From Parcubacteria group bacterium (GTDB taxonomy: Bacteria; Patescibacteriota; Minisyncoccia; UBA6257; JACRHW01), in NCBI GenBank assembly GCA_016217555.1, contig JACRHW010000002.1:1-47811 (forward strand): 47,811 bases of DNA. Reading direction: 5' to 3'. The translations under genes and the position numbers were made by a program. Below the pieces are notes generated by a model. The model saw only the letters and a program-made list of their open reading frames with translations. It was not told where the DNA came from and made no database searches. How positions within the stretch are numbered: position 1 is the first letter of the stretch; each line of letters begins with the position of its first letter. Shown one piece after another: positions 601-43,398 of the stretch.

Positions 601-719
601 AACATGTGTATTTAGATGCAGTATGAGGAAAATGCGAGGAGCGGAATAAACTGTATTTCAGACGATACAGCGTTGAGCACCGGAGCATTTGACGAAGTAA
701 TGCGCTAAATACACATGTT
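601..719. repeat. Element A1: ~120-bp structured repeat, family 1
   Basis: Perfect 15-bp arms AACATGTGTATTTAG/CTAAATACACATGTT around an 89-nt core that aligns with cores at 13780-13868 and 42513-42600. Confidence 0.85.
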
Positions 720-720
720 C

Positions 721-1317
721 TTAAAACATGATATCTTCCTCAGCTCGCGTATACGAATGTATCTCTTTTGGTGTAAACCAAAGTTTTATTTCTTGTTCCG
801 CCTCTGCATTATTTCCTGAAGCATGCACGATATTGCGCACCCCTCTTTTTTGTGCGTTTGCTAATAATGGAGAGTCTACTGAATAATCCCCTCGCAATGT
901 CCCCATTTCAGCCATAGAAGGAAGAGTGCCTCCCGTAATTTTACGTACCATCTCTACGGCATGAAGCCCCTGCACTACCATTTTAATAACAGGACCAGAA
1001 GCCATGAAATCTACTATCCACCCGTGTACCATCCTTCCTATCTTTACGGCGTCATCGGTTCCCATTTCATGAACGGGATCAAGATTATATTTTTGATAGG
1101 TGGCAAGAGTTTTTTCTCCCATCGCACGAAGATTTGCGTCAGAGGCGGAGTAGTGTTTCGAAAGGTCTTTTTTAGACGCCTGAAACATCTGCATTGCCAC
1201 GATTTTCAACCCACGCTGTTCAATACGCTTAACGATTTCACCCACCAACCCACGCTTCACTCCATCGGGTTTTACAATTACGAGCGTTCTCTCCTCCTTG
1301 AATAGTAATTTTGTCAT
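721..1317 (-). CDS. ndk: Nucleoside diphosphate kinase with insertions
   Basis: ERTLVIVKPDGVKRGLVGEI, active-site NIVHASG; ~40-aa insertion relative to the canonical NDK fold. Confidence 0.93.
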   Translation of the reverse strand: MTKLLFKEERTLVIVKPDGVKRGLVGEIVKRIEQRGLKIVAMQMFQASKKDLSKHYSASDANLRAMGEKTLATYQKYNLDPVHEMGTDDAVKIGRMVHGWIVDFMASGPVIKMVVQGLHAVEMVRKITGGTLPSMAEMGTLRGDYSVDSPLLANAQKRGVRNIVHASGNNAEAEQEIKLWFTPKEIHSYTRAEEDIMF

Positions 1318-4988: not shown

Positions 4989-5001
4989 AGATTAACATAC
5001 C

Positions 5002-5089
5002 AATATACGAATGATACTAATACTACAAATCAATACGAATATCGTACGTATTCGTAACCATTTGTATCATTTGTATGGATTCGTATATT
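5002..5089. repeat. AT-rich cruciform-prone repeat (TACGAATA family)
   Basis: AATATACGAAT/ATTCGTATATT outer arms and TACGAATA/TATTCGTA inner arms. Confidence 0.7.
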
Positions 5090-5097
5090 AGTATTTG

Positions 5098-8480: not shown

Positions 8481-8617
8481 TGTCCAGTTCAGGCCAAAGG
8501 CGAATCCTCAAGGGGGAGTCAAGTGGTATCGCTATTTATGGTGAGCCTGTCGAATCCATGATAGGGGGGTTGTAACGGTCTCCCCTTTGGAGATGAGCGT
8601 TTGGCCTGAACTGGACA
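8481..8617 (+). repeat. Element E1: family-2 structured repeat with nested palindrome
   Basis: Perfect 18-bp arms TGTCCAGTTCAGGCCAAA/TTTGGCCTGAACTGGACA; shared core; nested ATGGtGAGCCTGTCGAAtCCAT. Confidence 0.88.
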
Positions 8618-13743: not shown

Positions 13744-13762
13744 GTACCTGTTTTGCCTTGAT

Positions 13763-13885
13763 AAAACCTATCTATTCGGATGAAATGCGAGGCGCACATG
13801 AGAAACGGACTGAGCTGTATTTCACTGATACAGCGAAGGAGTATCGCAGTGTGCAACGAAGCAGTTCGCCAAAGAGGTAGGTTTT
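13763..13885. repeat. Element A2: family-1 structured repeat, diverged copy
   Basis: Arms AAAACCTATCTATTCGG/CCAAAGAGGTAGGTTTT; 89-nt core alignable to 616-704 and 42513-42600. Confidence 0.8.
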
Positions 13886-13890
13886 TGCTA

Positions 13891-13918
13891 AGAAAGTACG
13901 CCTTGCGGCGTACTTTCT
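13891..13918. terminator. Strong hairpin, possible terminator of zwf
   Basis: AGAAAGTACGCCttgcGGCGTACTTTCT, 12-bp stem. Confidence 0.55.
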
Positions 13919-14027
13919 CCAAATGACGTAAGTGACAGATCCGATAAAGGTTCTGAAATTCACCCACCTATGTCTGAAGTATAGCAGATTACGTTTTGTT
14001 TGTAAAGGGGGGTAAGGCTATCCCTTC

Positions 14028-15551
14028 TCATTCAATCTTTTTTCCTTCTTCAATAATCGTGTTGGTGTCTGGTACATAGGTATGAAGAGGAATAACATCA
14101 ATTCCTCCTTTCCATGCCCTTACGATAGGATCGATAAAACTCCACATGGCCACTACCTCATCAGTACTTACAAAAAGAATTTGTTCTCCAAGAATGCAGT
14201 CGAGAAGAAGCTTCTCATACTCCTCAACATATTGAATCCCTTGCCTATTCTTCCGTAGCACAAAATCGAATGCTCTTTCTTCCATCACAAAATCAAGCCC
14301 CGGCTTCTTCGACCAAAATTGGATGGTGATTCCCTCCTGCGGTTCTAAACCAATAACAACTTTATTTTTATAATGTCTCCCCTCAGTAATAGGGCACAAA
14401 CAAGGTTCTGGATGTTTAAATGTAATTACAATCTCTTTTTTTATCTCACCCATACGCTTCCCTCCTTCAAGCATAATAGGAACCCCCTCCCAGCGAGGAA
14501 CATTGAGTGTCGTCATAATCTTAAAATAAGTCTCTGTGATAGAACGTGGATCCACTCCTTTTATTGAAGCATACCCCTTGTATTGAGCACGGAATGTTTT
14601 CTTCACAACATCCCCCTCGGTGATACTTACAAGATGCTCTAATACTCGCGCACGCTCCTCTCGTATTGCCTCGGCACCATAAGCACGAGGTCGTTCCATG
14701 GTGACAAGCGCAAGCATTTGTAATACGTGGTTTTGCCCTACATCAACAAGCGCACCCACACCATCATAAAACGCACCTCGCTCCTCGACACCGAGTGTTT
14801 CAAAAAAACGAATATCAATACGCTCTATGTGCTTAGCGTTCCAATTATCTTCAAAAAGATTGTTCGCAAAACGGAAACTTAGTACATTTTGAATCATCTC
14901 TTTTGCAAGATAGTGATCGATACGATATACCTGGGTCTCCTTAAAAAGTGTTCCCAACAACTCATCGAGTTCTATTGCTGTTTTTAGGTTACTCCCAAAA
15001 GGCTTCTCAACAAGAACCCTTGTCCATCCCGTTAGGGGGAGAGGCGTGCTGCGAGCCATCGCAACCTCTAATGGGATCCGCCCTTCTTCCTCCCCACCAC
15101 ATGGTATCGTAAGCCCTGAGGTAGCAAGATGCTCAAAAATACCTTTATAAAGTTCTGGGGGCACTGCAAGATAAAATAATTTATTCGTACAAATACCCCA
15201 CTCTTCATCGATGTCCTTAAGACGTTTGGCAAGTGAGATGTAACATGAATCTGTATCTAAAAACCCTTGGTGATAAACAAATGAGTTGAGAAAGTTTGTT
15301 GGATCGCTCTCCTTGTCTTGATCACCCACGTATTTGAGAAAGGCAGACCTAAGATGTTCTCTAAACATTTCATCCGATAATTCCCGCCGCGCAAGGCCAA
15401 CCACCCTAAACGTTGTTGGTAATTTTCTCGCCTTGTATAAATAGAAAAGCGCGGGGGCAATTTTCCTCGCTATCAAATCCCCCGTTGCTCCAAAAATTAC
15501 AAGAATTGTAGGGGTAAGACCATCCCCGCAACCATCTATATTTTTTTGCAT
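14028..15551 (-). CDS. zwf: Glucose-6-phosphate 1-dehydrogenase
   Basis: VIFGATGDLIARKIAPALFYLYK, RVLVEKPFGSNL, RIDHYLAKEMIQNVLSFRFAN; start revised to MQKNIDGC. Confidence 0.95.
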   Translation of the reverse strand: MQKNIDGCGDGLTPTILVIFGATGDLIARKIAPALFYLYKARKLPTTFRVVGLARRELSDEMFREHLRSAFLKYVGDQDKESDPTNFLNSFVYHQGFLDTDSCYISLAKRLKDIDEEWGICTNKLFYLAVPPELYKGIFEHLATSGLTIPCGGEEEGRIPLEVAMARSTPLPLTGWTRVLVEKPFGSNLKTAIELDELLGTLFKETQVYRIDHYLAKEMIQNVLSFRFANNLFEDNWNAKHIERIDIRFFETLGVEERGAFYDGVGALVDVGQNHVLQMLALVTMERPRAYGAEAIREERARVLEHLVSITEGDVVKKTFRAQYKGYASIKGVDPRSITETYFKIMTTLNVPRWEGVPIMLEGGKRMGEIKKEIVITFKHPEPCLCPITEGRHYKNKVVIGLEPQEGITIQFWSKKPGLDFVMEERAFDFVLRKNRQGIQYVEEYEKLLLDCILGEQILFVSTDEVVAMWSFIDPIVRAWKGGIDVIPLHTYVPDTNTIIEEGKKIE

Positions 15552-15677
15552 ATATGTCCAAACAAGCACATTTTACCACAAACGCATGGTTTTTAAGTGC
15601 CCGACAAACGATTGACTTTTGAGTTAATTATTGTAAAACTCTTATTAGTTTCTTCACAACACAAAAGGAGGGGTCAT

Positions 15678-20981: not shown

Positions 20982-21002
20982 GTTAGTTGTTTATTTTTAA
21001 AT

Positions 21003-21158
21003 TACGAAGTATCTATTCCGAATCATTCCGCAGGCACGAAGCAGGGTGTTGTCAATCCTTCGGTGTATCCGAATTGGATTGACAACGAAGTGCCTGCGGA
21101 CAGAGCGAGAATATCGCTGGGTATTCTCGCGTGTGAGAAATAGATATTTCGTAATTTA
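21003..21158. repeat. Multi-hairpin structured element between xseA and xseB
   Basis: Outer arms ACGAAGTATCTATTCC/GAAATAGATATTTCGT; inner CCGCAGGCAC/GTGCCTGCGG, GTTGTCAATCC/GGATTGACAAC, GCGAGAATA/GTATTCTCGC. Confidence 0.75.
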
Positions 21159-21161
21159 CAA

Positions 21162-22817
21162 TTATTTAATTTCTTCAATTTTTGATACGAACTCACCCTT
21201 ATATAATTTTGTCATAACTTTCTCTCCAACAGCAAGATCCTCCACACTTTTCACGACACCACCTTTTACATTCCTAATAATACTATACCCTAATTTTAGA
21301 TTTCTTTCAGGGCTTACCCCCTCAAGGTATGTTTCATACGAAATAAGTTTCCGAGAGACTTCTTTAAAAATCTGTTCGAGTGCAGCACGAGCAAGACCAA
21401 TCATTTCTCGACTTCGTTTTCGTATCTCCTCCAAACGTAAGCCAATACCAAGAAGTGCCTGCTCAAGTTCACGTCCAAGATATTTATAGCGCAAGAAAAG
21501 CTGGCTCATATATCCAAGCATCTGATCCACAGAACCTCGTATATAATTTTTCCGCTCAGAGAGTACTGCTTCGAAAGAATATAATAAATCTTGTGCGAGT
21601 GTAGGTACCCCTTCATGGAGTCGTTTCCATGATTCATTAATAGTCATTGCAACAATAGAAGGGGTTGAGGTTGCCCTGTCAGCAACAAGGTTAGTAATAG
21701 GTACATCCCTATCGTGACCAATACCACAGAGCGTTATAATTTTTGAACTAAAAATGGCACGCGCCACAAACTCATTATTAAACGCCTGTAAATCTTCTAA
21801 ACTTCCCCCACCACGAATGATGACAAGTATATCAAGATCGTCCATGTGTGTATTAAACCACCTGATCCCCCTAAGAATGTCATCAACCGCCCGTGCCCCT
21901 TCGACACGCGCATCATAAAAATATAATTGCAATCCCAACGACTCCAAATTTCTTCTAAAATCATCAATTACCGCCCCAGTACGCGAAGTAATAATACCTA
22001 TACGGGTAATAAATTCTGGAAGCGCTCTTTTTCTCTCAAACAACCCCTCGCTCTCAAGTTTCTTCTTAAGCATCTCATACGCCTTCTTAAGTGATCCCTC
22101 ACCTGCAAGCTCCAAAGAATAAACGAGAAAACTTAATCTCCCTTTTGGCTTATATACATTTGGTACTCCACTTACTTTCACCTCAAGCCCCTCCTCAATC
22201 TGAACCCCCATCCGTTCATAGGTTGAGGGGCGGATATAGCAATTCAAAATACTCTCATCTATTTTATCCTTAAGCGTAAAATAAATTCCAGATGGGTGCA
22301 CCTGCACACTCGACACCTCACCTCGAATAAACACATCTCGCTCTCCAAGAACAGTATTCAAAAAATTCAAAAATCCACTCACCGTAAAAACCTTCTCATT
22401 TTTTTCACCCTCCTCTCCAAAGTTCGAAAGAAGTTGCCTCTGAGCGGCTTTCAAATCTGACCCTCCAGATACCCCCGTCCTCGTCCGAAGCGAATCCTCA
22501 AGGGGGAGTCGATTTATACTAGGGGGGTTGTGGGGGTCACCCCCTTGGAGATGAGTCTTGGACGAGGACGGGGGTATCACAGCACACTCTTTTACTAACG
22601 CCAAAATCTCGCTTCCAAACTCATGGAGTTTTTTCTTCCCAATTCCCTTCACATCGGCAAGCTCCTCATACGTCTTTGGCATTGTTTCTGCCAAAATCTC
22701 TATCGTCTTATTTTGTAGAATATGAAAACGCTCAACTCGCGACCTCCTCGCCGTCTCATTTCTCCACGCCGTCAATTTTTGAAATAATTCTCTCTGCATC
22801 ATACTCAAATATACCAA
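21162..22817 (-). CDS. xseA: Exodeoxyribonuclease VII large subunit with N-terminal HRDC domain and in-frame E2 insertion
   Basis: SGIYFTLKDK, IGIITSRTGAVIDDF, DILVIIRGGGSLEDLQAFN, GIGHDRDVPITNLVADRATSTPS; N-terminal HRDC-like TYEELADVKGIGKKKLHEFGSEIL. Confidence 0.93.
   Translation of the reverse strand: MVYLSMMQRELFQKLTAWRNETARRSRVERFHILQNKTIEILAETMPKTYEELADVKGIGKKKLHEFGSEILALVKECAVIPPSSSKTHLQGGDPHNPPSINRLPLEDSLRTRTGVSGGSDLKAAQRQLLSNFGEEGEKNEKVFTVSGFLNFLNTVLGERDVFIRGEVSSVQVHPSGIYFTLKDKIDESILNCYIRPSTYERMGVQIEEGLEVKVSGVPNVYKPKGRLSFLVYSLELAGEGSLKKAYEMLKKKLESEGLFERKRALPEFITRIGIITSRTGAVIDDFRRNLESLGLQLYFYDARVEGARAVDDILRGIRWFNTHMDDLDILVIIRGGGSLEDLQAFNNEFVARAIFSSKIITLCGIGHDRDVPITNLVADRATSTPSIVAMTINESWKRLHEGVPTLAQDLLYSFEAVLSERKNYIRGSVDQMLGYMSQLFLRYKYLGRELEQALLGIGLRLEEIRKRSREMIGLARAALEQIFKEVSRKLISYETYLEGVSPERNLKLGYSIIRNVKGGVVKSVEDLAVGEKVMTKLYKGEFVSKIEEIK
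22468..22578 (+). repeat. Element E2: family-2 repeat inside xseA, 111 bp = 37 codons
   Basis: Perfect 19-bp arms GATACCCCCGTCCTCGTCC/GGACGAGGACGGGGGTATC; shared core GCGAATCCTCAAGGGGGAGTC. Confidence 0.92.
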
Positions 22818-40157: not shown

Positions 40158-40185
40158 ATTATATATCCTTTACAAAAAAAGTCAA
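40158..40185 (-). promoter_or_regulatory. Strong sigma70 promoter for rpoBC
   Basis: TTGACT (rc 40180-40185), 16-bp spacer, TATAAT (rc 40158-40163). Confidence 0.8.
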
Positions 40186-40287
40186 CCCCGTTAGGGGTAA
40201 GGAAGATATTTGACTATTTACGAAATCTCATAGCTGGAAAAACATATCACCAATTCAATAATCCTTTTTGGTTACCTCTAACGGGGT
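40185..40287. repeat. Solo ACCCCGTTAG inverted-repeat element
   Basis: ACCCCGTTAGGGGTAA (40185-40200)/TTACCTCTAACGGGGT (40272-40287), 15/16 match. Confidence 0.75.
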
Positions 40288-41349: not shown

Positions 41350-42441
41350 TTATGCCACCCGTGATCTTATGTGGATACTCTGTACTATCCCTAATGCAAT
41401 ACAATTAACAATTAAATTTGATCCTCCATAACTCACAAATGGTAAAGCAATCCCTGTAATGGGCAAAAGACCAATATTCCCGCCCACATTAATGACCATC
41501 TCGATATATAACTTGAGAAGGAAGGCGAGCGTAAATATTCTTGAAAAATTATTAATCGCGTGGTCAGTGATTGAAGAGAGCCGTATAAATATGATACCGT
41601 ATGCACCAAAAAGCACGAGTGCACCAATAAGTCCAAGTTCTTCTGTATAAGCCGCAAAAATAAAATCAGTACGCGCCTCGGGCAGTAGGCGTAGTTGTGT
41701 TTGTGTACCCTGCCCCAACCCCTTACCCAAAAGACCGCTCGATCCTATTGCTATCTTTGCCTGCAAAGCATTATATCCCGTACCCAATGGATCTCGGTAG
41801 GGATTCAAAAAGGTAAAAACCCGCTCCTTCTGATATGTTTTAAGGAGACCGTACCAAGCCACAACAAGCACTATCAAAAAAACCACTATCCCAACAAACG
41901 CGTGTTTGGGTCGCAATCCAAGAAAAAAAACAAGACTTGCAAACATCAAAAATAATACCGCAGCTAAACCAAAATTGGGTTGTAAGAAAACAGGGACAAT
42001 AATTCCCAGTACATAAAGCAAGGGGACGGCAACATACCCTACAAGCCATATATCTGAATGTCTTCTCGAGAAATAACGCGCAAAAACAAAAAGAAGAGCA
42101 AGTTTTGCAATCTCCGAAGGTTCAACGCTAAATGCACCAAGCCTAAACCACGACGATGCACCACGCACACGACTTCCCAAAAAAAGAACTGCTATAACAA
42201 GCCCGACCGAAACAAGATAAAAAGAGAGAATAAAAATCTGATTTTCAAATAAGGTACGCCAATCCAAAAAGGAAAGGGCAAATATAATAGCAAGGCCAAT
42301 ACCAATCCACAAAGACTGTTTTGCTACATAAGAAACTCCCCCATCCCCAGGAAGGCTTCGTAACATCAACACACTTACTGACATAAGATATCCCGCAGCA
42401 AGCATAATCCACCAATCAATTTTCTTCAAAATCTCCATCAT
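41350..42441 (-). CDS. rodA: RodA/FtsW/SpoVE family glycosyltransferase
   Basis: RGASSWFRLGAFSVEPSEIAKLALLF, QAKIAIGSSGLLGKGLGQGTQ, LPFVSYGGSNLI. Confidence 0.94.
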   Translation of the reverse strand: MMEILKKIDWWIMLAAGYLMSVSVLMLRSLPGDGGVSYVAKQSLWIGIGLAIIFALSFLDWRTLFENQIFILSFYLVSVGLVIAVLFLGSRVRGASSWFRLGAFSVEPSEIAKLALLFVFARYFSRRHSDIWLVGYVAVPLLYVLGIIVPVFLQPNFGLAAVLFLMFASLVFFLGLRPKHAFVGIVVFLIVLVVAWYGLLKTYQKERVFTFLNPYRDPLGTGYNALQAKIAIGSSGLLGKGLGQGTQTQLRLLPEARTDFIFAAYTEELGLIGALVLFGAYGIIFIRLSSITDHAINNFSRIFTLAFLLKLYIEMVINVGGNIGLLPITGIALPFVSYGGSNLIVNCIALGIVQSIHIRSRVA

Positions 42442-42495
42442 ATATCACTTAGCATAGATCATTAAAATATGAAAAACAAAATATCATACCTACAA

Positions 42496-42617
42496 AAAAT
42501 CCGCGCATCTGGATGGAGTTCTAGGAAAAAGTAAGGAACGGAATAAGCAATAGTTAAATACTATCGCGTTGAGTACCGGAACTTTTGACGAAGAAATACG
42601 CCAGATGCGCGGATTTT
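42496..42617. repeat. Element A3: family-1 structured repeat
   Basis: Perfect 17-bp arms AAAATCCGCGCATCTGG/CCAGATGCGCGGATTTT around an 88-nt core. Confidence 0.9.
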
Positions 42618-43398
42618 ATTCTTGCAAGGGAGGAGCTGCCAACTCTACCTCCACCTGTTCTTTGCCAGTAAGAGGTAAGAACTGCAAAAGCGAAGACGGA
42701 AAATTAATTTCAAAAAAACGATTTTCCCTACTCAACACCGTTTTTACAAGCGTTGCAGAAGCCGCAAGAACATTCTTCTTGCTTGCATCATAGATAATAC
42801 CCGTAGCATAAAGATCGTCAATAACAAGATCTCCGTTATTGCGTGCAGTACCCGTGATACGCAAAGAATCTTTTTGTTTCTCCAAACTCACATTAGAGGT
42901 AATAATATTCTTGGAATAAAAACGATCCTCTACCGCAAACTTAGCGTCAGTTATTGTGAGAGTTACATTTTCTACATCTGTCGCCCCCACATTAAATCCA
43001 GATTCATAAATATATTTCAATTTTCCAGGATAAATAAACGTACTCCCATCACGCTCTTCCAACATTTCTCCGGTGGCATTCTCAAGGGCGATATGATAGA
43101 TAATCTCCGAAGCTCCTACCGTAAGATTAGGATTTTTAATCTGAGCGAGCACGTCACTCCTCGAAGAAGACACAGGGAGACTCTTTGCAAAAATAACCTG
43201 CAAAAATTGTGGATATTTCAAAGCACACGACATAGTACACACCCCACCACAATCAATCTGCACTTCATCCTGATTTTTCTTACTGTCAAAACACGTAGGC
43301 GCTATATTAAACCACTTCAAATACACACCAAACAAAAGCATCCCAAACATAGTAAGGTAAACCGAACTAATCACCAATTGTTTCGTCGTACGATTCAT
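42616..43398 (-). CDS. Hypothetical membrane-anchored protein
   Basis: N-terminal TM; CFDSKKNQDEVQIDCGGVCTMSC motif. Confidence 0.75.
   Translation of the reverse strand: MNRTTKQLVISSVYLTMFGMLLFGVYLKWFNIAPTCFDSKKNQDEVQIDCGGVCTMSCALKYPQFLQVIFAKSLPVSSSRSDVLAQIKNPNLTVGASEIIYHIALENATGEMLEERDGSTFIYPGKLKYIYESGFNVGATDVENVTLTITDAKFAVEDRFYSKNIITSNVSLEKQKDSLRITGTARNNGDLVIDDLYATGIIYDASKKNVLAASATLVKTVLSRENRFFEINFPSSLLQFLPLTGKEQVEVELAAPPLQE

Follow-up and report, generated by a model that had tools for sequence, protein, structure and literature searches.

A MITE-type palindromic repeat family at gene ends in Patescibacteria

Palindromic repeats already described and three copies in one window

The enterobacterial ERIC sequences (IRU, RU-1) are intergenic palindromes of 127 bp with terminal inverted repeats, TA ends and a duplication made on insertion, and the ERIC hairpin is reported to be co-transcribed and, when in one of its two orientations only, to change how stable the upstream message is (PMC2229807). 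The MITE-like repeats RUP, BOX and SPRITE of pneumococcus, of about 107 bp, likewise have terminal inverted repeats and duplications and occur in scores of copies per genome (PMC3049150). REPs and REPINs, associated with RAYT, are palindromes found behind genes in many copies and form hairpins, while integron attC sites are imperfect palindromes situated just behind the stop codon of an ORF, with one strand folding better than the other. Mobile hairpins with variable self-complementary stems have also been reported as the double-hairpin elements of fungal mitochondrial DNA. In many of these features the systems named resemble an element present in a 47,811-nucleotide stretch (hereafter, the window) of the 818-kb genome of a Parcubacteria group bacterium (G000).

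The element differs from ERIC in sequence, since a search of 5,426 E. coli genomes (blastn, word size 11, E ≤ 1e-3) gave no match, and also in that its arms drift with compensation around a conserved core and one of its ends is tied to stop codons. The mode of action of ERIC would be the closest documented one for it. IS partners with matching terminal inverted repeats have been proposed for RUP and BOX, whereas none was found for the Patescibacteria element; RUP, BOX and SPRITE are not known to be tied to stop codons. REPs measure 20–40 bp, as opposed to about 122 bp with a 5-bp duplication for the element, which ends in TARRAC..GTYYTA and lacks the GTAG or CGTC tag. The RYYYAAC/GTTRRRY ends of attC are replaced by TAGRAC/GTYCTA, and the element, instead of forming part of cassette arrays, follows individual core genes at loci that have empty orthologous counterparts. 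The fungal elements are organellar, smaller and composed of two hairpins, and their resemblance is taken as a lead only. A comparison with Rfam, which the initial annotation had proposed, gave no family match: the window matched only 5S rRNA, and nine loci searched at a permissive threshold gave no relevant match. By its features, the element is a MITE-type palindromic repeat and is neither REP/RAYT, ERIC by sequence, attC nor an Rfam family.

The initial annotation had assigned loci at 601–719, 13763–13885 and 42496–42617 (A1, A2 and A3) to one family. All three were present there and alignable end to end, with a mean column identity of 78%, and each formed one long interrupted hairpin (z of -5.9 to -7.4 versus shuffles for the + strand fold). 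The strand on which they were originally written (+) is antisense to the neighbouring genes, and the copies are accordingly given here on the minus strand. Copy A1 (600–720, sense to the adjacent gene; model match 594–726, E 1.2e-36; fold z -7.4 on the + strand) is delimited by an inverted repeat at 600–720 with perfect 16-bp arms at 600–615 and 705–720. Between these, alignment and modelled pairs define a conserved core of 88–89 nt (616–704) with two inner helices, internal loops that are purine-rich on the + strand and a tip hairpin. The stop codon of a nucleoside diphosphate kinase gene (721–1317, minus strand; Pfam NDK, 1.4e-38) abuts this copy directly (721–723, TAA as read on the minus strand).

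Copy A2 (13763–13885, minus strand; model match 13758–13890, E 2.8e-34) lies downstream of a glucose-6-phosphate dehydrogenase gene (14028–15569, minus strand; Pfam G6PD_N and G6PD_C), the stop codon of which is 142 nt away. A short hairpin, AGAAAGTACGCCTTGCGGCGTACTTTCT, occupies approximately 13890–13920 in between, directly beside A2, and a similar hairpin was noted beside a copy (L074) in a congener. At copy A3 (42496–42617, minus strand; model match 42491–42622, E 3.6e-38), which has perfect 17-bp arms, the stop codon of the preceding gene (42616–43398, minus strand; no Pfam or NCBIfam match) overlaps the arm, such that the TAA (42618–42616) is supplied at the end of the element. The next co-directional gene past A3 (41350–42441, minus strand) belongs to the FtsW/RodA family (Pfam FTSW_RODA_SPOVE, 1.1e-84; best NCBIfam match RodA). 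Thus, the perfect terminal arms originally described were confirmed for A1 and A3 but not for A2, in which the arms contain two mismatches and one G-T pair. No conserved reading frame was seen in the element.

A covariance model built from A1–A3 detected 31 copies in the genome (E from 1e-11 to 4e-38), of which only A1, A2 and A3 are inside the window, and the 13-base motif ACGAAGNAATNCG occurred 11 times in the genome as opposed to 0 times for the reversed control. These two results indicate that the family is not due to chance. Three copies (L035:1501–1654, L037:701–854 and L067:6456–6608) have part of the core replaced by the same small GATRAAYGAAACTATTCGTTTCATTYATC-like hairpin and represent a sub-variant with a side branch.

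Evidence of mobility and the history of the arms

The ends of the element were evident from a sharp limit of complementarity. Over three positions, the frequency of Watson-Crick pairs rose from 0.28 (a random level, two positions outside) to 0.67 (the last T-A) and then to 0.89, with values mostly of 0.8 or more inside. Immediately outside these ends, a direct repeat was significant only at a length of 5 bp (z of 5.0 for 77 copies outside the genus; 0 of 500 shuffles), and perfect 5-bp duplications flanked 9 of these 77 copies compared with 0.3 expected. Duplications were mostly decayed around copies within the genus (z of 2.7). A duplication of TA or of 4 bp was rejected, as only 5 bp stood out. 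Comparison of two congeners revealed empty orthologous sites (e.g., L012 versus G001:C49, L035 versus G001:C57 and L064 versus G000:C19), and the arm sequences were absent from the empty sites. The suggestion that the loci represent a hairpin mobile element is thus supported by both empty sites and target-site duplication. At some other orthologous gene ends (L024, L028, L034 and L037), the congener G001 carries a different, low-complexity long hairpin (of the GTTAACGAGTTAAC.. or GTTAGC.. type), as if a hairpin were kept at the gene end while its kind changes.

A recent burst, in which the element behaves as an ordinary one with terminal inverted repeats, was found in a Magasanikbacteria genome (G545, JACPGS01), which contains 27 full-length copies, many pairs of which have cores only 0–5 differences apart; most copies show the duplication, which was intact at all five positions in 10 of the 20 copies scored. 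The near-identical arms and the 5-bp target-site duplications of these copies are the reason for regarding the element as MITE-like. Its size (about 122 bp), its copy number (31), the terminal inverted repeat TAGGACTTACGCGTTTGG common to the young G545 copies, the 5-bp duplication and the empty sites are all features of a MITE. The conserved core is a point against this reading, as a MITE requiring nothing but its terminal inverted repeats would not be expected to have one.

Searches for a mobilising enzyme gave negative results. In G545, pairs of the terminal inverted repeat (three mismatches or fewer) flanked nothing longer than the element itself, the assemblies being fragmented, and everything recovered there in the search for an autonomous copy was either a copy of the element, a solo end or, in one case, a mini-hairpin. 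RAYT (Y1_Tnp, PF01797) was absent from six copy-rich genomes (G002, G038, G090, G277, G462 and G414) and present in six genomes that had been sampled because they were poor in the element, a phyletic mismatch on which this enzyme was rejected as the mobiliser and which further separates the element from the REP/RAYT system. Similarly, DDE_Tnp_1 (PF01609, IS4/IS5-like) was rejected on its absence from the copy-bearing genomes G545, G000 and G038. A viral origin was also rejected, since the core pattern had no match in IMG/VR and the element none in plasmid and phage records.

The arms of different copies had been described as unrelated, which proved incorrect, as they are diverged versions of one terminal inverted repeat, TAGRACYTACGYRTTTGG. 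The arm consensus was TAGAACCTACGTATTTGG for 51 copies of the genus (mean pairwise arm identity of 0.59), TAGGACTTACGCGTTTGG in the G545 burst and TAGAACTTTCGCATTTGG elsewhere, and is common to the phylum. The outer AGAAC and the inner ATTTGG were best kept, and the middle was the most variable part. These results bear on the proposal that a hairpin core takes new arms from each insertion site. In agreement with that proposal, arm divergence within the genus (31–39%) was independent of core divergence, and pairs of copies with 0–3 core differences differed at 8–23 of 34 arm bases with pairing still good. However, arm identity was 0.92 among the 27 copies of the G545 burst, where identical cores were accompanied by identical arms. 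In that burst the arms were copied along with the core and hence were not taken up anew, which contradicts the acquisition of new arms per site. Together with the absence of arm sequences from empty sites and the consensus common across the phylum, this renders the proposal extremely unlikely.

Given that burst arms were copied with the core and that the consensus is phylum-wide, arm divergence arises after insertion and in matched pairs. Where both congeners have a copy at the orthologous site (six sites), 13 arm pairs had changed on both sides with pairing kept, compared with 8 one-sided changes. Such matched drift would be produced by selection on the hairpin or by one arm serving as the template for the other, singly or in combination.

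Other palindromic families were noted in the same window. One with a core containing GGAATGGTTC / TCACACGT.. and CCCAGCG (20998–21158) numbers about two dozen copies genome-wide, and its self-complementary arms are long and divergent. Another, with core CTCCCCCTTGAGGATTCG..TCTCCAAGGGGGTGACC (8481–8617 and 22468–22578), has arms of 18–26 bp that appear wholly unrelated between copies, and may illustrate site-specific arms better than the 122-bp element does. A third (40185–40287) combines a conserved terminal inverted repeat, ACCCCGTTAGARRTNR, with a variable interior in about 15 genome copies, some of which enclose tRNA genes. A conserved 98-bp palindrome, ATACYAATATACGAAT.. (4997–5094), is present in about 15 copies, and stop codons adjoin 9 of these as well.

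Placement of copies relative to stop codons

For the scoring of placement, ORFs of 80 codons or more were considered, and their stop codon had to start no more than 10 nt (0 to 10) ahead of the end of the element; results of this test agreed with those of a simple gene call. In the genus, a stop codon was located at the sense end of 43 of 57 copies and at the other end of 2, and in 14 of the 43 the first triplet of the element itself (TAG or TAA) was the stop codon. The same bias was seen among 172 copies from many genomes (102 at the sense end versus 10 at the other, 52 at neither and 8 at both), compared with a pass rate of about 5% per strand for random intergenic positions. Among palindromic families of the genome, stop adjacency was noted for 15 of 16 copies of the element versus 1 of 15, 2 of 8, 4 of 11 and 9 of 15 for families E, C, B and F, respectively.

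A position behind stop codons, together with very stable hairpins, would be consistent with intrinsic (Rho-independent) terminators of the neighbouring genes; a terminator family was among the initial suggestions. However, runs of five or more T residues past the arm were found in 5 of 51 copies, near the 5% background, and in the absence of a U-tract the element is not an intrinsic terminator. The size of about 122 nt with a conserved core and the location of several copies only 3–20 nt ahead of the next co-directional gene likewise make a terminator family very unlikely. Insertion into pre-existing terminator hairpins was rejected as well, since the inverted repeats of the genome included no matching short palindromes.

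The bias might instead arise at insertion, if the machinery delivered the element to stop codons in a set orientation (e.g., by way of single-stranded or RNA-engaged DNA at gene ends) with no selection of survivors. The 43:2 orientation and the position of stop codons (0 to -10 nt), which holds even for copies with a long intergenic stretch beyond them, favour targeting of this kind, as does the composition of 20 intact duplications, which are AT-rich and often contain TAA, TTA or TAG. An AT-rich target alone, however, cannot set orientation, and among fresh insertions (i.e., the 20 copies with duplications intact at 5 of 5 positions) 9 were in the sense position, 3 were reversed and 8 were not stop-adjacent. 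The corresponding numbers for 140 copies with decayed duplications were 88 sense, 7 reverse, 39 neither and 6 at both ends. The lower bias of the young copies, both in orientation (p = 0.08) and in stop adjacency (p = 0.15), is expected if placement results partly from retention, and targeted insertion is considered unlikely.

Replication strand was also examined in relation to placement. Genes were co-oriented with GC skew in 73% of cases, and the strand of the element followed skew in a ratio of 44:10. Replication strand alone was rejected because the gene rule (43:2) fits better, although the two are correlated, and this correlation means that there may be a replication-strand effect on placement. 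On two contigs of another genome (C5 and C6 of G083), all listed copies (at least 18) were on the same strand, hinting at such an effect.

Base pairing, range and probable origin of the family

The observation that inner helices change together across A1–A3 was borne out, and selection, or another force, on pairing was strongly supported by a larger sample. Thus, compensated changes were found in 42 of 43 modelled pairs over 99 copies, with a covariation score of 0.639 compared with 0.203 for shuffled and at most 0.11 for slid controls, and 92.9% of paired cells were complementary as opposed to 68.3% and 35–43%, respectively. A further 56 copies from wider searches gave comparable values (92.9% and 0.610).

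Strong covariation would also be shown by a family of structured regulatory RNAs that is transcribed antisense to the gene and has been dispersed and maintained on account of its RNA function. In keeping with this, the antisense strand has the purine-rich loops, folds better than the other strand by 5–11 kcal/mol and, in the inner helices, favours G-T over A-C by about 4:1 (184:44 and 76:21). In contrast, G-T pairs made up only 5–6% of cells and were nearly even with A-C in the arms (64:31 and 32:27). Since a stem selected purely as RNA should give far more wobble on one strand, we infer that pairing at the DNA level or on two strands is at least part of the story. Considering also that closely related species differ by the gain and loss of copies with 5-bp duplications and that no Rfam family corresponds, a regulatory RNA of this kind is quite improbable, and the covarying arms caution against taking covariation by itself as proof of a functional RNA.

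Conservation of the core in place was apparent for three of the six orthologous pairs (12 of about 266 bases changed versus roughly 9–26% in the flanks). The other three were without clear core conservation, and in two of these another copy may have replaced the original one. The core shared without differences by copies from the two congeners (L011 in G000 and L062 in G001) points to constraint rather than gene conversion within a genome.

Further copies, the search for which was proposed initially, were found beyond the 31 in G000 with the same covariance model: 26 in the congener (G001), 16 in a genome of the same family (G002) and 19 in one of the same order (G038). None of three outcomes named initially as counting against the family (a lack of further copies, a lack of covariation and a match in Rfam) was observed. 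In a wider search with a model built from 99 copies, the numbers of genomes with the family were at least 58 of 293 in the class and at least 30 of 245 in the phylum (12–20% of those sampled), counts that are lower bounds because only the best candidates were scored. An exact core pattern, searched in 85,488 GTDB species, occurred at 34 places, all in Patescibacteria. Lineages with the element include at least Parcubacteria, Moranbacteria, Magasanikbacteria, Harrisonbacteria and Saccharibacteria. Full-text searches of open-access papers in PMC gave no description of small palindromic mobile elements in Patescibacteria; the family itself, its phylum-wide range, its fixed-orientation docking at stop codons and the drift of its arms in matched pairs are new.

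Taken together, these findings are probably best explained by a Patescibacteria-wide, non-autonomous, MITE-like palindrome, the surviving copies of which are kept as oriented gene-end hairpins. On this explanation, A1–A3 would be old copies of an element of about 122 bp with an 18-bp terminal inverted repeat (TAGRACYTACGYRTTTGG) and a self-complementary core of about 88 nt, presumably moved by a transposase acting in trans, which on insertion into AT-rich DNA would generate a 5-bp target-site duplication and new copies bearing the master arms. Copies would survive mainly directly behind a stop codon and in one orientation, a pattern in which the TAG or TAA of the element often becomes the stop codon, and the survivors may be those that end a gene without harm, leaving a hairpin within operons or at their ends. 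Persisting as oriented gene-end or intercistronic hairpins, they might contribute structure at mRNA 3' ends or between cistrons, while their arms would drift with pairing kept by coordinated change, through selection on the hairpin, arm-to-arm correction or both.

A bolder possibility, offered tentatively and with low confidence, is that bulk domestication has turned this phylum-wide mobile hairpin into a gene-end module. Such a module would dock at stop codons in fixed orientation, with the stop codon supplied by the base of its own stem, and would influence the termination of translation, the decay of the 3' end or the coupling of the next gene. A factor of the host or of the element would bind the core, and the pairing of the changing arms would be under selection.

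Patescibacteria have very small genomes, and little regulation has been described in them. With its tens of copies and its precise placement at the ends of genes, the element would rank among the most abundant non-coding features of these bacteria, and its docking at stop codons with a bias in orientation provides a testable case of a transposon family turning into gene-end hardware.
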